Shown here piece after piece: positions 1,201 to 21,830 of a stretch of 28,184 nt of DNA (position 1 is its first letter; every line of letters begins with the position of its first letter). The DNA comes from a virus. The stretch covers positions 1 to 28,184 of IMG/VR virus record IMGVR_UViG_3300006929_000081; one strand, written 5' to 3'. The notes below the pieces were generated by a model, which was given only the letters and a program-made list of their open reading frames with translations, did no database searches and was not told the DNA's origin. The position numbers and the translations under genes are program-made.

Positions 1201-1395
1201 ATGGCTGATCCAACGACCTTTGCTTATTCTGTATTAAAAGCTATACAGGGTCGCATAGAATTAACCCAGGACTCAATCCTTCACGGTAGCCCTAGAGACA
1301 TGGAGTCTTACAAGCAACTTATCGGAGAACTAAAGGGGTTAGAGTTCGCAGAACAGGAGATCAAGGATCTTCTGCAATCTTCGGAGGACGAATGA
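1201..1395 (+). CDS. small helical protein, unknown function
   Basis: A 64-residue protein, acidic at the C-terminus (SSEDE), probably two helices around the segment LHGSPRDMESYKQLIGELKG. I recognise this pattern as a recurrent small protein encoded between portal/head genes of marine phages, where its function is unknown. Its stop overlaps the start of the co-chaperonin gene in an ATGA arrangement, suggesting coupled translation with the head module. No membrane segment or cysteines. Confidence 0.82.
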   Translation: MADPTTFAYSVLKAIQGRIELTQDSILHGSPRDMESYKQLIGELKGLEFAEQEIKDLLQSSEDE

Positions 1396-1862
1396 CTAAA
1401 ACTCTATACGTTCCAGATCATGTACTGGATTCGCAGAAAAAGCAGAAAGAAGCAACTTTGGCAACAGCATATATAAAGAAGGATGAGAAAGTTCTCGATC
1501 CGTCTTTGGTTTCCAAAAACTTAAAAGAGAGATTACCCCAGCCCACAGGCTGGAGACTCCTTGTTATGCCCTATATGGGCAAGGCCACTACAGATGGCGG
1601 CATTCACATTCCCGACGCTGTTCGTGATAGGGAAGCACTCGCTACGGTGGTTGCATATGTTTTGAGGGTAGGTCCTCTTGCATATCAGGATCCAAACAAA
1701 TTTGGCCCAGACGGGCAATCTTGGTGTGGAGAAGGTGATTGGGTTTGCATTGGCCGCTACGCTGGCGCTCGATTTAAAATTGAGGGTGGCGAAGTACGCA
1801 TCATTAATGATGATGAGGTCATTGCTACAATTCTTGAGCCTGACGACATCAAGCATGTGTAG
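1392..1862 (+). CDS. phage GroES-like co-chaperonin (Cpn10 family)
   Basis: Residues about 50-148 of this 156-residue protein match the GroES layout: an opening strand (GWRLLVMPY), a mobile-loop region with GGIHIP at 69-74 where GroES has GGIVL, a strand reading ATVVAYVLRVGP, a turn ending in GDWVCI, and a closing strand EVIATI. A 49-residue charged N-terminal extension is absent from bacterial GroES (about 97 residues). Phage co-chaperonins such as T4 gp31 replace GroES on the host GroEL ring to fold the capsid protein; here the gene lies four genes upstream of the major capsid protein, which fits that role. The function in this phage is inferred. It is followed by a strong ribosome site for the scaffold gene. 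Confidence 0.85.
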   Translation: MTKTLYVPDHVLDSQKKQKEATLATAYIKKDEKVLDPSLVSKNLKERLPQPTGWRLLVMPYMGKATTDGGIHIPDAVRDREALATVVAYVLRVGPLAYQDPNKFGPDGQSWCGEGDWVCIGRYAGARFKIEGGEVRIINDDEVIATILEPDDIKHV

Positions 1863-3927: not shown

Positions 3928-4836
3928 ATGGCTATCAGTAGAGCCCAACTAGCGAAAGAGCTAGAGCCTGGTCTCAACGCCCTTTTCGGCCTTGAGTATG
4001 CTAGGTATGACGACGAAGCATCCGAAATTTATGACACTGAATCTTCAGAGCGTGCCTTTGAAGAGGAAGTCATGCTTTCCGGTTTCGGAACTGCACCTGT
4101 TAAGGGTGAAGGTTCGGCTGTTTCTTTCGATGATGCACAGGAAGCGTATACTGCACGGTATACGCATGAGACTATCGCTCTTGCTTTCTCCATTACGGAA
4201 GAAGCAATTGAAGATAATCTTTATGACCGCCTCGCATCTCGCTACACAAAAGCCTTGGCACGTAGCATGGCGAACACCAAACAAGTTAAAGGTGCCGCTA
4301 CGCTCAACAATGCTTTTGACAGCACCTTCACTGGTGGTGACGGCAAGGAGCTTTGTGCAACGGATCACCCTCTTGTGAATAATAACGATCTTCGCAATGA
4401 GCCAAGCACTGCTTCTGACCTTAACGAAACCAGCCTTGAAAATGCTCTTATCGACATTGCTGCCTTTGTCGATGAGCGCGGACTCAAGGTATCGGTTCGT
4501 GGCGAAAAGTTGATTGTTCCGCCTGCTCTGCAATTCGTTGCAGATAGGCTGCTTGAGTCAACCCTTCGTCCGGGAAGTGCCGACAACGATGTTAACGCTA
4601 CGCGGAACATGGGTATGCTTCCGCAGGGTTATGTCGTTAACCACTATCTGACGGATACGGATGCTTGGTTTATTAAAACCGATGCTCCTCGTGGATTTAT
4701 CCACTTTGAGCGTATGCCGATGTCCACGAAGATGGAAGGCGATTTCGATACAGGCAATGTTCGGTTCAAAGCCCGTGAGCGTTACAGCTACGGTTACTCT
4801 GACCCACGTTGCGTGTTCGGATCACCTGGCGCGTAA
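3928..4836 (+). CDS. major capsid protein (Mu gpT-like, HK97 fold)
   Basis: A 302-residue protein that I recognise as the Mu gpT-like major head subunit found in many marine phages. The segment FEEEVMLSGFGTAPVKGEG leads into an E-loop-like region. A helical stretch around residues 88-125 (SITEEAIEDNLYDRL and following) is the probable spine helix. GKELCATDHPL, LKVSVRGEKLIVPPALQ and the C-terminal GNVRFKARERYSYGYSDPR are characteristic of the family. It would form the icosahedral shell after scaffold-directed assembly, perhaps with help from the upstream co-chaperonin. It has a strong ribosome site and is followed by a G/C-rich hairpin, both fitting a highly expressed gene. No N-terminal delta domain is evident, in keeping with a separate scaffold. 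Confidence 0.92.
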   Translation: MAISRAQLAKELEPGLNALFGLEYARYDDEASEIYDTESSERAFEEEVMLSGFGTAPVKGEGSAVSFDDAQEAYTARYTHETIALAFSITEEAIEDNLYDRLASRYTKALARSMANTKQVKGAATLNNAFDSTFTGGDGKELCATDHPLVNNNDLRNEPSTASDLNETSLENALIDIAAFVDERGLKVSVRGEKLIVPPALQFVADRLLESTLRPGSADNDVNATRNMGMLPQGYVVNHYLTDTDAWFIKTDAPRGFIHFERMPMSTKMEGDFDTGNVRFKARERYSYGYSDPRCVFGSPGA

Positions 4837-4842
4837 GACTAC

Positions 4843-4864
4843 GGGGGAGGGGAAACTCTCCCCC
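4843..4864 (+). terminator. G/C hairpin after capsid gene, likely terminator or mRNA stabiliser
   Basis: Inverted repeat GGGGGAG (4843-4849) and CTCCCCC (4858-4864) with an eight-base loop, seven bases after the capsid stop codon. The following bases, AACTTATTT, are only weakly T-rich, so partial termination or 3'-end protection are both possible. The rest of the 118-base gap to 4955 holds no convincing gene; a 20-codon frame at 4879 looks random. Confidence 0.65.
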
Positions 4865-9501: not shown

Positions 9502-10914
9502 ATGGCATCATCATACACGACTAGTTTTGGTATTGAAAAAATAGGTTCCGGAGAACAGTCTGGAGCGTGGGGAACGACTACAAACCACAATCTAGATATT
9601 CTAGACCGGGTAGCCTCATACAAAGCTGTTGCGATAACAACGAACGCAGACACGCACACTTTAACTGTGCGAGAGGCATCTCCTGGATCTGGGACAGAGA
9701 ATCTGCAAGATGGAATGTATCGTGTAATTAAATTTACAGGAGCATTGGATTCAAATTGCACAGTTACAGTGGCCCCTAACACGACTGCCGCTTTCTTTAT
9801 CATTATCAACGCAACTACCGATTCTGGCTCTAGTGGACCATACTCCGTAATTCTTACGCAAGGTTCTGGAGCGAATATAACTGTAGAAAATGGAAAATCT
9901 GCCGTTGTTTACATGGATGGTGCGGGTTCTGGCGCGGCGGTAATAGACGCTCTTTCCAACCTTCAGCTTGCTACGCTGACCGCGTCTGGAGATGTTACAT
10001 CCAGCGGCACGTTTAACGCTTTAGGTGATACTGCCGCAAGCGACAAGGCGGCAATGGGCTACACCTCCGCTGAAGGATTGATCCTTACGGGTCAGGGTTC
10101 AACTAATGATGTGACCATCAAGAATGACGCAGATGCAGACGTTATTACGATTGCCACCGGAGGAACTAATGTTGATATTGTAGGCGACGTAACAGCCGCC
10201 ACGGTACAGGCTGATGGTGATACTTCCGCTGGTGACAACGCTGCAATGGGGTACACGGCTGCGGAAGGTCTAATCCTTACAGGTCAGGGGTCAACTAATG
10301 ACGTTACCATTAAAAATGACGCGGACGCTGATGTAATCACGATTGCGACTGGGGCAACTAACGTCGATATTGTGGGTGATGTGACAGCCGCTACAGTAAA
10401 CGCTGACGGCGACACTTCCGCTGGTGATAACGCTGCGATGGGTTACACCGCTGCCGAAGGTTTGATTCTTACGGGTCAAGGCTCGACTAACGATGTCACA
10501 ATTAAGAACGATGCTGATGCGGATGTAATCACAATCGCAACTGGAGCAACTAATGTAGCGGTTGCTGGTCAGATTAATGGTGGCACAATCATTCTTGCAG
10601 AGACTGACACTGACACATCCAACACAGGCAGTGTAACGATTGACTTCTCCGCTCATCAGAATTTTGTGCTTACCCTTACGGGTAACGTGACTTTGGCTAA
10701 CCCCAGTACAGAATCAGTTGGTCAGGCAGGAGTGTTTGTGTTCATTCAAGATGGCACTGGATCACGAACTTTGAGTTTAGGCACGGATTATGAAACTGCG
10801 GGTGGGGCTGGAATTACTCTCAGCACCGCAGCTTCAGCCGTGGATGTCGTACCATATTTTGTGAAGGCTGCAAATTCAATTCAGCTAGGAGCTATACAGA
10901 AGGCATTTAGCTAA
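9502..10914 (+). CDS. tail fibre-like protein with three 64-residue repeats
   Basis: A 470-residue protein. Residues 1-150 begin SYTTSFGIEKIGSGEQSGAWGTTTNHNLDIL, split here by a conserved Gly/Trp motif GSGEQSGAWG common to marine phage fibre-like proteins, and continue as a beta domain. Residues 175-352 are three tandem 64-residue repeats centred on AAMGYT(S/A)AEGLILTGQGS and NDVTIKNDADADVITIATG. The C-terminal 360-470 is another beta domain (HQNFVLTLTGNVTLANP onward). The repeat region likely forms an elongated trimeric shaft. It is directly upstream of the large fibre gene. No catalytic site is recognised. Confidence 0.78.
   Translation: MASSYTTSFGIEKIGSGEQSGAWGTTTNHNLDILDRVASYKAVAITTNADTHTLTVREASPGSGTENLQDGMYRVIKFTGALDSNCTVTVAPNTTAAFFIIINATTDSGSSGPYSVILTQGSGANITVENGKSAVVYMDGAGSGAAVIDALSNLQLATLTASGDVTSSGTFNALGDTAASDKAAMGYTSAEGLILTGQGSTNDVTIKNDADADVITIATGGTNVDIVGDVTAATVQADGDTSAGDNAAMGYTAAEGLILTGQGSTNDVTIKNDADADVITIATGATNVDIVGDVTAATVNADGDTSAGDNAAMGYTAAEGLILTGQGSTNDVTIKNDADADVITIATGATNVAVAGQINGGTIILAETDTDTSNTGSVTIDFSAHQNFVLTLTGNVTLANPSTESVGQAGVFVFIQDGTGSRTLSLGTDYETAGGAGITLSTAASAVDVVPYFVKAANSIQLGAIQKAFS
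10024..10557 (+). repeat. three 192-base in-frame repeats in fibre gene
   Basis: Repeat units begin at codons for residues 175, 239 and 303, exactly 192 bases apart; the third is cut short at residue 352. In the 22-codon core (10090-10155, 10282-10347, 10474-10539) the three copies encode identical residues but differ at 12, 17 and 16 codons in pairwise comparison, all synonymous. Confidence 0.92.
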
Positions 10915-13334
10915 TGACGATGTTTGGATCACAGTGGTTCGCCGCACCTGATACGACTTATGAGATAAATCAGTCGATCAGGTTTGAATCGGGGGATAAT
11001 GCTCTTTTAAGTCGTAGCCCTTCGTCTTCCGGCTCTCTAACAACGTGGACGCTTTCTTGTTGGGTCAAGAGAGGTAGACCAAACGCTAATGAAAATGGCC
11101 AATGGTTTCCTATCTGGTCTGCATCGGATGGCTCTAGCACCTATGATGCTCCGCTATATATTGGGGACGCATCTGCTCCCGGTCCGTGGAATGTTAATAT
11201 TGCTGGTCAAACTTGGACAACTACACAAAAAGCCGCAGATGTTGCGGGGTGGTATCACACGGTCGTAGTTTGGGATAGCACAAACGGCACCGCTGGTGAT
11301 CGGATGCGACTCTACATTAACGGCAGTAGGGTTACTGATTTTTCAGCAACTGGCACAGCAACCAGCAGTATGGAAAGTAGATGGAATAGCAGCAGCTACT
11401 CATCTCACCGCATTGGATCACTCAACATTACGGGTGGGGCGGATAATAAATATCTGTTTGACGGATATCTGGCTGAAATGGTTTTCCTTGACGGAACCGC
11501 CTCCACCGATGCCAGCGACTTTGGTGAAACAAACAGCAGTACTGGTCAATGGATACCGAAAAATGTTAGTGGCCTGACGTTTGGAACTAATGGATTTTAC
11601 GTTACAGGTCAGGACAGTTCTGATTTAGGCGATGACGAATCTGGTAACGGAAATGACTGGTCTAGCAGTGGCTTGGCAGCAACGGATCAGGTTGACGACA
11701 GCCCGACTGATAATCACTGTGTTATCAATCCTCTTGATGCACAACTTCCAAGCAATGTAACTTTAGATGAAGGAAATTTAAAGTACTCCAACGCAAATTC
11801 TGGTAATGCTGCCGATGCAAGGGGAACTTTTGCTGTCAGCAGCGGTAAATGGTATTGGGAGGTAGAGGCTGACGCTCTCGGTCAGTCAGGAGTTAACCGT
11901 GAATTTATCGGCATCGTTGGAACAGAATGGCCAATCGGCAGTGGTTCGGGCGGAACTAGCTTTGGGTCTGATAGCACGGGTTACGCTTTTGCAACAACAG
12001 GTCAGAAGATCAATAACGACAGTGCTTCTAGCTACGGTTCGGCATTTACAGCGGGTCAGTATATAGGCGTTGCTCTCGATTTAGATAACGGTAAAATTTA
12101 CTGGAGTATAAATGGCACTTTTCAAGACTCTGGTGACCCTGCTGGCGGTTCGGGAGAAGCGTTTTCAAGCATCTCTGGAACCTTTGCCCCTGCTTTTGCT
12201 GTAGATTACGGAACTGGGACTTCAACGCTAATAGCTAATTTTGGTCAACACGATTTCCAAAATAGTCCTCCAACAGGATTTAGCGCATTAAGCACCGCCA
12301 ACCTAGCCGACCCACAAGTAGAAAATCCCAGCAAGTATTTTCATACCCAGCTTTACACGGGTAATGGTAGCTCCGGCCACTCGATTACCAATAATGCCCA
12401 AGCGGGAGATTTTCAGCCTGATTGGTTAATAATCGCTCCCCGTTCCAATGGCGACCATCATCAAGTTTTTGATGCCGTAAGAGGCACCACAAGCCGCATT
12501 CAAACAAACCAAGCAAACGCAGCAACAGTGGACGGTACTGCACTTATCACGTTTGAAACCGATGGATTTGACATTGACACCACGGATGTGAACTACAACG
12601 GATCAAGCAGAACCTATGCTGCTTGGCAATGGAAAGCTAACGGTAGCGGCAGCAGCAACTCTGATGGTTCTATAACGTCAACAGTTAGTGCTGACACAAC
12701 CGCTGGTTTCAGCATTGTGCAATATGAGGGAACAAAATCAAACGCCACTATAGGACATGGTTTAGGAGTGGCTCCGAAATGGATTATCATAAAAGATTTT
12801 GATAATACTGAAAGTTGGGTTGTAGGGCTGGACGTTTTAGGCTTTACAAAAAATCTTTTTCTTAATCTTAACAATGCAGTGGCAACCAGCTCAACAATTT
12901 GGAATGATACTGCACCAACTTCGTCTGTGTTTAGTATAGGCACAAGTGATGGTGTTAATAAAACAGCCACGCACATTTCCTACTGTTTTGCAGAAGTCGA
13001 GGGCTTTAGTAAATTTGGAACATACGAGGGCAATTCGAGTGCGGACGGAACATTTATTGCCACAGGATTTCGTCCCGCGTGGATTACACTAAAAACTGTG
13101 GACTCAGCAAACGATTGGGTCATCTACGACAGCAAGCGTGATCCGATTAACATCGCTGATACTGTACTGCGAATGGACAGCACCAACTCTGAGTATTCTG
13201 GCAGTGGTCGAGAAATAGACATACTCAGTAATGGTTTCAAAATGAGAACGTCAAACGGAACGATTAACGCAAGTGCTACGTTTGCATATATGGCGTTTGC
13301 TGAGTTTCCCTTAAAATACGCGAATGCGAGGTAA
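10914..13334 (+). CDS. large tail fibre / receptor-binding protein with LamG- and SPRY-like domains
   Basis: An 806-residue protein. Residues about 20-215 look like a concanavalin/LamG fold (FESGDNALLSRS, WTLSCWVKRG, MRLYINGSRV, DGYLAEMVFLDG). Residues about 287-447 resemble a SPRY domain (SGKWYWEVEAD, GQYIGVALDLDNGKIYWSING). From 475 onward three related modules carry QPDWLIIAP (501), APKWIIIKD (620) and RPAWITLKT (720), each followed by a second strand pair; I recall this as a DUF7483-like fibre module. LamG and SPRY folds often bind sugars or proteins, so host-surface binding is a reasonable inference. The gene starts on the stop of the repeat fibre and is followed by a putative fibre assembly gene. 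Confidence 0.8.
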   Translation: MTMFGSQWFAAPDTTYEINQSIRFESGDNALLSRSPSSSGSLTTWTLSCWVKRGRPNANENGQWFPIWSASDGSSTYDAPLYIGDASAPGPWNVNIAGQTWTTTQKAADVAGWYHTVVVWDSTNGTAGDRMRLYINGSRVTDFSATGTATSSMESRWNSSSYSSHRIGSLNITGGADNKYLFDGYLAEMVFLDGTASTDASDFGETNSSTGQWIPKNVSGLTFGTNGFYVTGQDSSDLGDDESGNGNDWSSSGLAATDQVDDSPTDNHCVINPLDAQLPSNVTLDEGNLKYSNANSGNAADARGTFAVSSGKWYWEVEADALGQSGVNREFIGIVGTEWPIGSGSGGTSFGSDSTGYAFATTGQKINNDSASSYGSAFTAGQYIGVALDLDNGKIYWSINGTFQDSGDPAGGSGEAFSSISGTFAPAFAVDYGTGTSTLIANFGQHDFQNSPPTGFSALSTANLADPQVENPSKYFHTQLYTGNGSSGHSITNNAQAGDFQPDWLIIAPRSNGDHHQVFDAVRGTTSRIQTNQANAATVDGTALITFETDGFDIDTTDVNYNGSSRTYAAWQWKANGSGSSNSDGSITSTVSADTTAGFSIVQYEGTKSNATIGHGLGVAPKWIIIKDFDNTESWVVGLDVLGFTKNLFLNLNNAVATSSTIWNDTAPTSSVFSIGTSDGVNKTATHISYCFAEVEGFSKFGTYEGNSSADGTFIATGFRPAWITLKTVDSANDWVIYDSKRDPINIADTVLRMDSTNSEYSGSGREIDILSNGFKMRTSNGTINASATFAYMAFAEFPLKYANAR
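12336..13313 (+). repeat. three diverged modules of about 100-120 residues in fibre C-terminus
   Basis: Modules begin near residues 475, 598 and 699 with YTGNGSSGH, YEGTKSNATIGHG and YEGNSSADGTFIATG. Each continues with (Q/A/R)P.W(L/I)I and a later (G/S).F.I/M strand. They are recognisable only as protein and look like old duplications. Confidence 0.6.
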
Positions 13335-18244: not shown

Positions 18245-19272
18245 TGGCCACTGTAACAGAACAGATTGTACGCCAAGCCCCCTTTCTTGAGGACTTCCAA
18301 AGAAAGATTCTGGAAGCTTCGTTTGCGCGAGGCGAAACTCCTGTTGATATTCCAGACATAGGCGTTGCGGGTCTTGATCCACTTACGCAGCAGGCCATTG
18401 CTACTGGACAGGGCATAGGGCAGTTTCAGCCTTTTTTAACAACAGGTGCGGACACAATAGGACAGGGTCTGGCTACTCTTCAGCAACAGGCGGCTGGTGT
18501 CCCAGGGTTATTTGAACAAGCACAGCAGCAGGCGGCTGGGACTACGGGTGCTTTTGACCCGACTACATCTGCTGCGTTTATGGATCCGTTCCAACAGGCT
18601 GTTACACGGGATGCTCTTGCCGAAATGCAACGGCAGGCAGACATCCAGACGAATCAGCTTTCGGCACAGGCCGTTGGTGCGGGTGCTTTTGGTGGTAGTA
18701 GACAGGGCATAGCACAAGCAGAACTGGGCAGAAATCTGGCCGACATTCAGAGCCGTCGCATCTTTGAAGATGCAAGCCGTAACTTTAACCAAGCCCAGAA
18801 TGCCGCACAAACAGCTTTTGAAAACCAGCAACGCCGTCAGCAAGGTGTCGCACAGCTTCTAGGTGGACTAGCATCCTCACAGTCACAGGAGGCGGTTCGT
18901 CTTGGTGGGGGTATCGCGGGTCTTGGATCACAGCAGGCTAACATAGCTGGTGTAGGACAAAACCTTTTGGGTCAGCAGGCGCAGCTACAGTCTCAGCTTG
19001 GCTCTCTTGCACAGACGCAGTCGCAAAGAGAACTAGACGCTGCCAGACAGTCTCAGTTGCAACAGTCCTTTGAACCCTTCCAGCGTATTAGCTTCATGAG
19101 TGATATCTTTAAACCTCAGATTGGTTCCGCTGGCTCCACGTTAGGTTTGAACGTGGCTCCCGCACCAAGTCCATTGTCACAGGCTATTGGTCTTGGAATA
19201 GGGGCTTTTGGAATTAACCAGAAGTTAGGTAACCCTTTGGGTAATCTCTTTGGCAGTGCTACGGGGACTTGA
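18244..19272 (+). CDS. glutamine-rich internal virion protein candidate
   Basis: A 342-residue Gln/Ala/Gly-rich protein, mostly predicted helical. Recognisable parts are GLDPLTQQAIATGQGIGQF, AAFMDPFQQAVTRDALAEMQ, the conserved AVGAGAFGGSRQGIAQAELG, and a C-terminal LGIGAFGINQKLGNPLG. This protein type is widespread in marine short-tailed phages next to the large internal proteins. Its composition resembles ejection proteins, which partly unfold to pass the tail. It overlaps both neighbouring genes by one base or a few bases. No enzymatic motif is visible. Confidence 0.75.
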   Translation: MATVTEQIVRQAPFLEDFQRKILEASFARGETPVDIPDIGVAGLDPLTQQAIATGQGIGQFQPFLTTGADTIGQGLATLQQQAAGVPGLFEQAQQQAAGTTGAFDPTTSAAFMDPFQQAVTRDALAEMQRQADIQTNQLSAQAVGAGAFGGSRQGIAQAELGRNLADIQSRRIFEDASRNFNQAQNAAQTAFENQQRRQQGVAQLLGGLASSQSQEAVRLGGGIAGLGSQQANIAGVGQNLLGQQAQLQSQLGSLAQTQSQRELDAARQSQLQQSFEPFQRISFMSDIFKPQIGSAGSTLGLNVAPAPSPLSQAIGLGIGAFGINQKLGNPLGNLFGSATGT

Positions 19273-21830
19273 TGATGAATAGACGCTCTCCAGTTCGATC
19301 CGTCCTAGCACAACGCAAAATGTTTGCGAATGGTGGAATGCTTCCCATAAGCACTCCCATGCAAAACACCATGGATCAAGGTCAGAATAAAGCGTCTGGA
19401 ATACTGGCATCCTCGACTCCACTGATTGAGGCGGTGTCGCAAGAGATTCTTGCACCCATGACGGGTGGTGCAATGCCCGTGGCTGGGTTTCATGAAGGGG
19501 GTTACGCCCATCGACATCCGCATGGTCTAACCATTTTTGGTGAACCTCCTAAATTACAAGAGGGAGATGCGGAAGGCAAAAGAATATACGACGCTGCTTA
19601 TAAAAGTGAAACTCCCATAGGATTGCAAACAAGTGGTCCTTTTGCAGAAGTAGAGTATAAGCCAACTGTAGGAGAACGTGCGGAAATTGGTCTGGGCTCT
19701 CCTCCAGAAGATCTACAAAAACGTGCGAATATGACTGCTGCGGAGCGTTTAGAGTCTATCTTCCCTTATGAGGCAGAACTTACAGGCGGATTTTTTGGCC
19801 CCCAAAAAGCTAGGGAAGCAGGTCCTGGCATAGGAGTAGATTCAACTTCTTTAGCTGAACAAGCTATAGAGGCTCCTCTTGCGTTTATTGATGAAACAGC
19901 AAGAAATTTAAGTCAGGCTAATTTTGCGGCAGGAAAGTTCTTAATGAACTTAGGAGAAACTATATTTAAAAGGGGCGACCAAAGTTTTGGAACAAAATAC
20001 GATCAGATATCTACCCTAGGTAACTTAATACGCAGACAACCTACCATTGAAGGTACGGATCCTTCAGAAGTTACGGATACTATTAATAGATTGGCAGATG
20101 CGTATTTAGGGGAAAATCCTGATGCTAGTGGTGCTGATTTAGCTAAAGCTGTATCAGAGGGAGTTTATAATCAGTATGAAGCCGGATATGCATTGGCAGC
20201 GGCTGATGCTGATTTAGTTATCAACGAAGAGGCTCGAGACAAAGCTATTCAAGATGCGGAAGAGGCAAAGCAACAAGAAGAAGCTTTAGCCACTGACGAT
20301 TCTGTTTCTGGAACGGAGGTTCCCGACCCTGCTCCGGAGCGTCCAGATCAAGACAGTCAAACTGTGCTAGATGGTGTTATAACAGGTTCAAAGGCTGTTC
20401 AAGACATTCAATCTGGCGTTGAAAAAGAAACTGCTCTTGCAGCAGAAGATGCTCTTGGTGCTGATTTAGCTAATTTAACTATTCCTGAAGCCGCAGACAA
20501 AGACGAAAAAACTACGGAAGAACTATTAGAGATGTATAAAACAGAGTTTTTAAACTCTGTCGGAGAATACGAAGGTAAAACAGAAGGCGAAATAGCTAAC
20601 GATTGGATTAAAATGGGCATGGCGATAGCTGCCGGTCAAAGCCAGTATGCTATTTCAAATATTGCTAATGGTGTTCTTAAAACAATTGATGCTTTTGGGG
20701 ATGATCCCAGAAGCAAAAGAGCTTACAACAACAAAGTTAAACTGGCTGCTGCTAAATATTCTCTGGAGTCTTTGGCTAAGTATAGGTCTAATTTAGAACA
20801 AACGTCTAGGGATGATAGGGCTTTATTTAACACGAGATTTAGAGTGCAGCCTGGTGAAAGCTTTGAATACAACGGAAGAACTTATAATGCTGGCGACACT
20901 GTAATTGCTCAAGTAGGAGACATTCGCAGCGGTGTTTTCCCGCTGAACAAAGTTAACTCCGAAGCTTTTGATATCAAACTTCTTGAAGATCAAGTTCGCG
21001 ACCTTAAAAAAACACTAAAGTCCAATCTATCAGCCCTAGGAGATAGAACGGAAAAAGGTTCTTCTATAGATAGTGCTGTGGAAGCCTATGGAAATCAGGT
21101 CGCGCAGGTCAGAGCAAATATAGGTATTCAGCATTTATTAAAAGAAGCCATGACCATGACGGGCGCTGTTACTGGTGGCGCTAACGCGCTGTTAGCTTTT
21201 GGTCAAAAAGTAGAAAACTTTTTAGGTATAAAATTAGGAGAGTTCTCTGCGGAAGAACCCGAAAAATACCGATTTTTGGTTAACCAAGCTATTCAGAAAA
21301 ATATTACGGCTTTGTTAAACGAGGGTAACCGAACTATTTCTGATGCAGACCGCGCCAGAGCGGAAACAATTGGTGGTCTTTACGCAGACTATGTATTGGC
21401 TCCTTCTACGATGAACAGAGATATACTAGAAAATACTCTCATAGAGTTCAGTAATTCTATAAAAAGAAACACTCAAGAAACGCTGGCTGATATGCAGGCT
21501 AGAGAAAATACATGGGCGGGGACTTTAACTAAGGGCGGCAGAGATGCTCAACAAATTATGGAACAGAGAAGGGGAACATTGGCCCTTGAAACATTGGATC
21601 CTTCTTCTGGTAAAAGAGTTCCCAGCAAAATTAAATGGACAGATATTTTAGACGTTAAGGGAGAAGGCAAAGATAGAACCATTACTTACAAATCGGATTG
21701 GTTTAAAAGACCGGAGCTTAAAACTGTAGAAGATTCTGCATTACCAGAAAATTATACCAAAGCTAAAACTCCCGAACAACGACTTGCAGAAATACTAGAA
21801 GAAAACCGTAAAAAGGAAGGGAAAGAATAA
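19272..21830 (+). CDS. large internal virion protein with ISDADR motif
   Basis: An 852-residue protein from the ATG at 19272, which overlaps the previous TGA; another ATG follows immediately. The N-terminus (RRSPVRSVLAQRKMFANGGM) is basic with an ANGGM motif, and HEGGYAHRHPHG follows. Residues about 310-420 are acidic and low-complexity. A conserved-looking block NDWIKMGMAIAAGQSQYAIS lies near 440. Residues 682-696 read LNEGNRTISDADRAR, matching the small protein at 500-898. The C-terminal part contains WTDILDVKGEGKDRTITYK. No transmembrane segment is evident. Position among ejection-type genes suggests an internal or injected protein. Confidence 0.72.
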   Translation: MMNRRSPVRSVLAQRKMFANGGMLPISTPMQNTMDQGQNKASGILASSTPLIEAVSQEILAPMTGGAMPVAGFHEGGYAHRHPHGLTIFGEPPKLQEGDAEGKRIYDAAYKSETPIGLQTSGPFAEVEYKPTVGERAEIGLGSPPEDLQKRANMTAAERLESIFPYEAELTGGFFGPQKAREAGPGIGVDSTSLAEQAIEAPLAFIDETARNLSQANFAAGKFLMNLGETIFKRGDQSFGTKYDQISTLGNLIRRQPTIEGTDPSEVTDTINRLADAYLGENPDASGADLAKAVSEGVYNQYEAGYALAAADADLVINEEARDKAIQDAEEAKQQEEALATDDSVSGTEVPDPAPERPDQDSQTVLDGVITGSKAVQDIQSGVEKETALAAEDALGADLANLTIPEAADKDEKTTEELLEMYKTEFLNSVGEYEGKTEGEIANDWIKMGMAIAAGQSQYAISNIANGVLKTIDAFGDDPRSKRAYNNKVKLAAAKYSLESLAKYRSNLEQTSRDDRALFNTRFRVQPGESFEYNGRTYNAGDTVIAQVGDIRSGVFPLNKVNSEAFDIKLLEDQVRDLKKTLKSNLSALGDRTEKGSSIDSAVEAYGNQVAQVRANIGIQHLLKEAMTMTGAVTGGANALLAFGQKVENFLGIKLGEFSAEEPEKYRFLVNQAIQKNITALLNEGNRTISDADRARAETIGGLYADYVLAPSTMNRDILENTLIEFSNSIKRNTQETLADMQARENTWAGTLTKGGRDAQQIMEQRRGTLALETLDPSSGKRVPSKIKWTDILDVKGEGKDRTITYKSDWFKRPELKTVEDSALPENYTKAKTPEQRLAEILEENRKKEGKE
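21315..21359 (+). repeat. remote copy of the ISDADR coding repeat
   Basis: Encodes LNEGNRTISDADRAR. Against 554-598 the 39 bases from AAC to GCC differ at three positions only, all synonymous, and include a 23-base identical run (557-579 versus 21318-21340). Confidence 0.92.

Follow-up and report, generated by a model that had tools for sequence, protein, structure and literature searches.

A phage GroES tied to one HK97-fold capsid clade and its possible role as a dedicated lid for host GroEL

Why do some phages carry their own GroES? For T4, the answer outlined in the available part of PMC3012670 is that a large capsid protein calls for a larger cage, and the probable effect of gp31 is to widen the cage for gp23 of ~56 kDa (excerpt of PMC6318259). 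The GroES of phage B8b has been suggested to be of use for a capsid or tail of greater complexity (excerpt of PMC4294664). Here we ask what GroES might do in a phage with a small capsid protein. The window, that is, the whole stretch of DNA that we analysed, is the 28,184-base IMG/VR virus record IMGVR_UViG_3300006929_000081. We argue that its GroES is a lid for host GroEL that is dedicated to the capsid protein of this phage and thus gp31-like in role, a reading to which we assign a probability of roughly two in three.

The GroES gene and its head module

The features of the locus are listed in Table 1. The Cpn10 domain of the GroES protein (residues 50–147) matches Pfam PF00166 (E 1.1e-7, 32.2 bits against a curated cut-off of 21.1), the ORF matches PHROG 3188 'co-chaperonin GroES' (E 2.2e-12), and its top sequence match in the PDB is GroES 3nx6 (E 6.6e-7). 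Within the phage GroES set, the PF00166 profile matches 96 of 97 members (E<=0.01) and the PHROG 3188 profile matches all 97. We modelled the single chain with AlphaFold2, with 92 aligned proteins from the window and the loci as input. The mean pLDDT is 83.7, with 86–96 for the core blocks (residues 51–150) and 57–82 for the N-terminal extension. The predicted structure is a Cpn10 barrel, the absence of which the first-pass annotation of this DNA had named as evidence against a co-chaperonin. Its closest structure is GroES 8wuc_a (Z 10.0, rmsd 2.8 over 93 residues), and T4 gp31 is also matched (1g31_A, Z 7.1, rmsd 4.2 over 85 residues; 2cgt_O, Z 7.6). The top viral structure match is the BFVD entry A0A221S4I5, 'Co-chaperonin GroES [uncultured virus]', with 42% identity; presumably, the uncultured-virus GroES entries in BFVD stem from the virioplankton GroES study of Marine et al. 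2017 (ISME J). The profiles and the predicted barrel thus agree with the GroES-type core that had been annotated. The N-terminal extension likewise has the annotated length of 49 residues, and the GGIHIP motif occupies residues 69–74 at the position of the mobile loop.

Table 1. Features of the GroES gene and the head module in the window
Feature	Position	Strand	Basis or remark
64-aa acidic ORF (ATG to TGA), candidate GroES partner	1201-1395	+	stop overlaps GroES start (ATGA)
GGAGG, likely GroES ribosome-binding site, within the 64-aa ORF	1383-1387	+	sequence
GroES/Cpn10 co-chaperonin, 156 aa	1392-1862	+	PF00166, phrog_3188, AlphaFold2 barrel
N-terminal extension, residues 1-49	1392-1538	+	block pLDDT 57-82, median dN/dS 0.14
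Mobile-loop region, residues 61-86	1572-1649	+	predicted GroEL-binding tripeptide, longer arm
GroEL-binding tripeptide I71-H72-I73 (predicted from sequence)	1602-1610	+	motif G69-G70-I71-H72-I73
Roof segment, residues 95-114, PLAYQDPNKFGPDGQSWCGE	1674-1733	+	position of host GroES roof hairpin
Scaffold-like acidic head protein, 293 aa	1892-2773	+	phrog_28737 7.3e-83 (function unknown), pI 4.86
Conserved head-module protein, 161 aa	2776-3261	+	phrog_36003 5.9e-62
Conserved head-module protein, 214 aa	3271-3915	+	phrog_37556 5.8e-16
Major capsid protein, 302 aa, HK97 fold, PF25209/Mu gpT-like, proposed client	3928-4836	+	profiles, model

The capsid protein, which has a mass of 33.3 kDa, matches the profiles PF25209 (1e-14) and Mu gpT PF10124 (1.3e-9). 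Its predicted model has the HK97 fold, with matches to the JBD30 gpT-type capsid 8rkc_A (Z 13.6, rmsd 2.7 over 200) and to HK97 1ohg_A (Z 13.6). Its description as a Mu gpT-like coat is therefore supported by PF10124 and by the JBD30 match of the model. GroES had also been placed just before scaffold and capsid genes; the gene order and the capsid bear this out, and the 293-aa protein is better termed scaffold-like, as the label reflects its position, size and acidity only. Directly 3' of the capsid gene lies a terminator-like G+C-rich hairpin (4843–4864), although the totals of the scan were near chance, and a promoter scan gave nothing above chance.

The window is related to a known group of phages. 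In HTVC023P-type pelagiphages, the co-chaperonin GroES is one of 13 core genes (excerpt of PMC9599517), and the GroES gene itself was thus already known. The GroES proteins of HTVC023P, HTVC027P and Roseobacter phages CRP-901/902 belong to the same PHROG 3188 family and occupy the same slot before the scaffold-like and capsid genes; the window protein shares 40–48% identity with those of the cultured pelagiphages HTVC023P and HTVC027P. We conclude that the record is a relative of the HTVC023P-type pelagiphages and that GroES is not peculiar to it. Viromes are rich in close relatives, and for one query the best 80 of 563 candidate stretches were taken. The available parts of PMC9599517 do not treat the capsid link, the loop or the small ORF. 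In the literature searched, we found no paper on a link between GroES and a capsid clade, a longer arm or a coupled small ORF, and Marine et al. 2017 may overlap with these points. Our analysis adds that GroES and one capsid clade are linked in both directions, that the loop arm is longer, and that a small ORF precedes GroES and is probably coupled to it.

Among 50,697 phage records, 14 match the GroES (E<=1e-3) and 22 match the capsid, including all 14 of the former. Of the eight records with a capsid match only, four are annotated with a GroES that lies between the portal and capsid genes, except that no portal was seen in MW202675. No GroES was found in the capsid-matching relatives MW202601 and vir526; MW202604 equals MW202601 in length and in the position of its match, and the search of one unannotated record with the GroES model was negative. 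The relatives share a gene order in which the portal (where seen) is followed by the small ORF, GroES, the scaffold-like gene, genes for proteins of ~160 aa and ~190–210 aa, and the capsid. This order recurs in phages that infect Pelagibacter, Roseobacter, Caulobacter, Alcaligenes and cyanobacteria as well as in metagenomic phages, with inserted genes interrupting it in a few relatives. Caulobacter phage RW, with its GroES in this slot, and Alcaligenes phage QDWS535 are phages of this kind.

The 64-aa ORF that precedes GroES was absent from the earlier account of the gene. A model of this ORF has a match directly upstream of GroES in 207 of 247 eligible loci; the ORF overlaps GroES in 160 of the 207, by exactly 4 bases in 73. 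None of the 51 loci with other capsids has a match. The model misses 40 loci, and most of the 25 inspected have an ORF of 40–101 aa that overlaps GroES or ends close before it; these differently worded ORFs were likened to the small ORF by position and size, and two loci have none. The sole database match of the 64-aa ORF at E below 0.01 is phrog_32603 (function unknown, E 1.5e-5). Judged from its sequence, the product is helical, and the gene overlap suggests that its translation is coupled to that of GroES.

Phages have acquired GroES in several contexts, as can be seen from its place before the portal gene or beside polA in other phages. In DSL-LC05, a short GroES frame lies directly before the portal gene, Flavobacterium phage immuto has a GroES-GroEL pair beside polA, and BcepSaruman and Vibrio D93 carry GroES within non-structural regions.

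Linkage between GroES and one capsid clade

We scanned for the linkage from both sides. The capsid-first scans covered IMG/VR and 84,980 species genomes, were blind to GroES and yielded 231 loci, of which the 153 with at least 3.5 kb upstream were counted. GroES is present upstream in 150 of these 153 loci (45/45, 40/40 and 65/68), about 2 kb before the capsid gene. The 78 loci with less upstream sequence were left out; GroES is still present in 33 of them. As some IMG/VR contigs were present in both capsid scans, we clustered the capsids at 95% identity, which still leaves GroES in 124 of 127 clusters, and we thus reject a sampling artefact as the source of the linkage. All three exceptions were scored as misses, though none is an intact module without GroES: one has an unreadable stretch within a frame whose visible residues match a Roseobacter phage GroES, one combines an unreadable stretch with bacterial genes upstream, and in the third, a chimera or remnant, bacterial genes replace the upstream head genes. 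The GroES-first scans, which used three different queries, gave 174 loci. All 108 with at least 3.2 kb downstream have a capsid of this type (51/51, 48/48 and 9/9). In 258 of 264 cases, the distance from the end of GroES to the capsid is 1.7–2.5 kb, and the two genes share a strand in all 264.

For comparison, we collected outgroup loci with the capsids of vir526 and MW202601 as well as control loci with Mu gpT-type and protease-fused PF25209-type capsids, the latter two from genomes of one bacterial class. None of these 51 loci (31 near outgroup, 20 control) has a GroES; a recognised capsid with at least 3.5 kb upstream is present in 25 of the 31 and 14 of the 20. Since the GroES model scores host GroES at 48–66 bits, an ordinary GroES in the outgroups would have shown. 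In the genomes of one bacterial class (loci L378–L388), most strong PF25209 matches fall in frames of 600–800 aa without GroES upstream; in these frames, the capsid domain is joined to a longer N-terminal portion.

Among 43 representatives in a capsid tree, a single branch (SH-aLRT 99) divides the 19 with GroES from the 24 without it, and the latter have at most 31% identity to any representative with GroES. The distances of GroES and capsid are correlated (Spearman 0.70 for 61 representatives, with none of 999 permutations as high), as is expected for two genes that are inherited together. The simplest reading is a single gain of GroES, with no clean loss observed. Thus, the correlation with a capsid clade, which the first-pass annotation had suggested to look for, is strongly positive in both directions. 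Capsids of the HK97 fold mostly do without a phage GroES, and the existence of related capsids without GroES indicates that GroES is no requirement of the fold itself.

This pattern bears on a different explanation, according to which GroES is a general lid that boosts the late supply of GroES for many phage proteins, with its place in the head operon a matter of timing only. One would expect a general helper to pass freely from one capsid type to another, whereas the linkage that we observe is two-way and near complete, related capsids occur without GroES, and the clade-specific loop and roof described below suggest specialisation. We thus consider a mere dosage effect unlikely, even though the mobile loop looks canonical, GroES is placed among the late genes, and the GroES genes of immuto, BcepSaruman and Vibrio D93 lie outside the head genes.

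Linkage alone cannot tell the capsid from the other head-module proteins as the client of a dedicated lid. The client could instead be the scaffold-like protein, the 161-aa or 214-aa protein, or the portal, as the module genes travel as a block in fixed order and GroES adjoins the scaffold-like gene. However, in vir526 and MW202601, which have no GroES, three genes are retained at the corresponding positions between portal and capsid, the acidic scaffold-like protein would be an unlikely client, and where the phage client of a dedicated lid is known, namely gp23 of T4, it is a capsid protein (excerpt of PMC3012670). We regard a client other than the capsid as improbable, somewhat more so than the dosage effect.

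Loop arm, roof and the host chaperonin

To compare the loop and roof, we aligned 266 phage GroES with nine host GroES and five other phage GroES. The 266 are those of 278 model matches that are whole, contain no unknown residues and lie on the plus strand of the locus; of six further phage GroES, we omitted DSL-LC05 because its annotated frame has no recognisable loop. The arm from the tripeptide to glycine 94 (residues 71–93) spans 23 residues in 255 of the 266 phage GroES and 24 in the remaining 11, compared to 19 residues in 9/9 host GroES and 18–19 in the five other phage GroES. Aligned in this way, the arm is longer by four or five residues, within our sample in this clade only, and that of the window GroES exceeds the host arm by 4 residues. 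The gp31 loop is also longer than the GroES loop (22 versus 16 residues; excerpt of PMC6318259), and the lengthening of the loop thus appears to have occurred in two lineages.

The roof segment has a signature of its own, with W111 in 223, C112 in 215 and Y98 in 209 of the 266 phage GroES and in none of the nine host GroES, while its length is roughly kept (18–22 residues in most relatives). In relatives, the length of the N-terminal extension ranges from 6 to 77 residues, with a median of 36. The phage protein thus resembles bacterial GroES in fold, domain and the GroEL-binding GGI motif, and it differs in the N-terminal extension, the Y...WC roof and the longer arm (266/266 versus 0/9). It resembles T4 gp31 in the Cpn10 barrel, the longer loop and the predicted role as a phage lid for host GroEL. 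Nevertheless, the two share 9–11% identity in the structural alignment, T4 gene 31 has no adjoining head genes, and gp31 has no roof loops (according to the available part of PMC6318259), whereas here a roof segment of similar length but other sequence is present.

Residue 71 is I, V or L in all 266 phage GroES. Residue 73 is L, I, V, M or F in 243 of the 266 and K or R in 21, and a K or R at this position would be expected to weaken the canonical hydrophobic tripeptide. Median pairwise dN/dS values among 80 close sequences are lowest in the Cpn10 domain (0.053) and the loop (residues 61–80; 0.056) and higher in the extension (0.14) and the roof (0.19); all are rough, because synonymous distances are near 1. 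By this measure, the GroEL-binding loop is conserved under purifying selection. These observations also bear on the idea that the protein has lost its GroEL action and was recruited for another role, either as a ring in head assembly or as a partner of the 64-aa ORF. The altered roof with its conserved W-C, the long N-terminal extension, the widespread small neighbour and the 21 proteins with K or R at residue 73 would fit such a role. Yet the loop is as constrained as the whole Cpn10 domain and residue 71 is invariably I, V or L, which makes a role outside the chaperonin very improbable.

A capsid-dedicated lid would act on host GroEL. A search of 27 relatives (13 named phage records and 14 IMG/VR records, which may be fragments) revealed no Cpn60/GroEL, and we thus reject a pairing of the phage GroES with a phage GroEL in these records. 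In a Cpn10 search of eight host assemblies, seven had, besides the prophage copy, a separate, high-scoring GroES of the host; the eighth, a 0.8 Mb Pelagibacteraceae single-cell assembly, has a match of the phage type only. The phage gene as a replacement for a missing host GroES is thus rejected for seven of the eight assemblies, and the eighth, being incomplete, does not settle the matter. As the hosts own a GroES, the phage adds a second, different lid. A tree of nine host and 119 phage GroES places the host proteins in a group of their own with support 100, which argues against recent capture of a host gene; this quick tree has few columns and long branches and is unrooted, and hence does not prove a single origin of the phage GroES.

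A proposed lid for a small capsid protein

Returning to the lid dedicated to the capsid, we propose the following mechanism. The phage GroES would assemble into a seven-fold lid, which would cap host GroEL through the mobile loop. The capped chamber would then fold the HK97-fold major capsid protein, encoded four genes downstream and the putative client, before assembly. With a capsid of only 33.3 kDa compared to ~56 kDa for gp23 (excerpt of PMC6318259), the cage-size reason for gp31 does not apply, and we reject the possibility that the lid is needed since the client exceeds the cage. The analogy to T4 gp31 that had been drawn for this gene therefore stands for the Cpn10 barrel and falls for the enlargement of the cage. 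Instead of making room for an oversized protein, the longer arm and the new roof may change the seating of the lid or the lining of the cage. Homologues of gp31 prefer their own gp23, and subtler features of the cage may matter (excerpt of PMC3012670); the longer arm and the changed roof would be candidates for such features.

A small capsid and a lid with a longer arm and a changed roof are locked together across hosts from cyanobacteria to Alphaproteobacteria. Together with the cultured phages of Caulobacter, Alcaligenes, Roseobacter and Pelagibacter, this makes a lid specificity that is independent of volume testable. The capsid type of these abundant ocean phages probably depends on host GroEL.

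A more far-reaching version appears doubtful to us, yet less so than the alternatives above. It describes a three-part device dedicated to the capsid, which would have become fixed a single time at the base of a worldwide clade of capsids with the HK97 fold. The GroES with its W-C roof and an arm extended by four or five residues would be co-translated with the ~64-aa helical protein, which would help to load the capsid protein onto host GroEL or to hold it there. The capsid would thereby be an obligate client of its private lid, despite fitting into the normal cage by size. If true, this would set the client specificity of the lid apart from the volume of the cage, an issue that gp31 left open.

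Lastly, we made some observations on related prophages and on the rest of the record. Gluconacetobacter diazotrophicus PA1 5 has two separate prophage-like regions of this capsid/GroES type (L274 and L282), and nine records of other Gluconacetobacter species contain further such regions, which could serve as laboratory systems. In the window, positions 171–500 encode a basic 109-aa protein with DUF5872 (PF19197, 3.1e-16), and positions 10914–13334 an 806-aa protein with a Laminin-G-like domain, SPRY and DUF7483 that matches a virion structural protein family. The motif TISDADR occurs in three copies in a 132-aa protein (500–898; motif region 515–660) and in one copy in an 853-aa protein (19269–21830; at 21333–21350). 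The longer stretch LNEGNRTISDADRAR is identical in these two proteins, and ISDADR is also found on the plus strand in 32 fetched loci.
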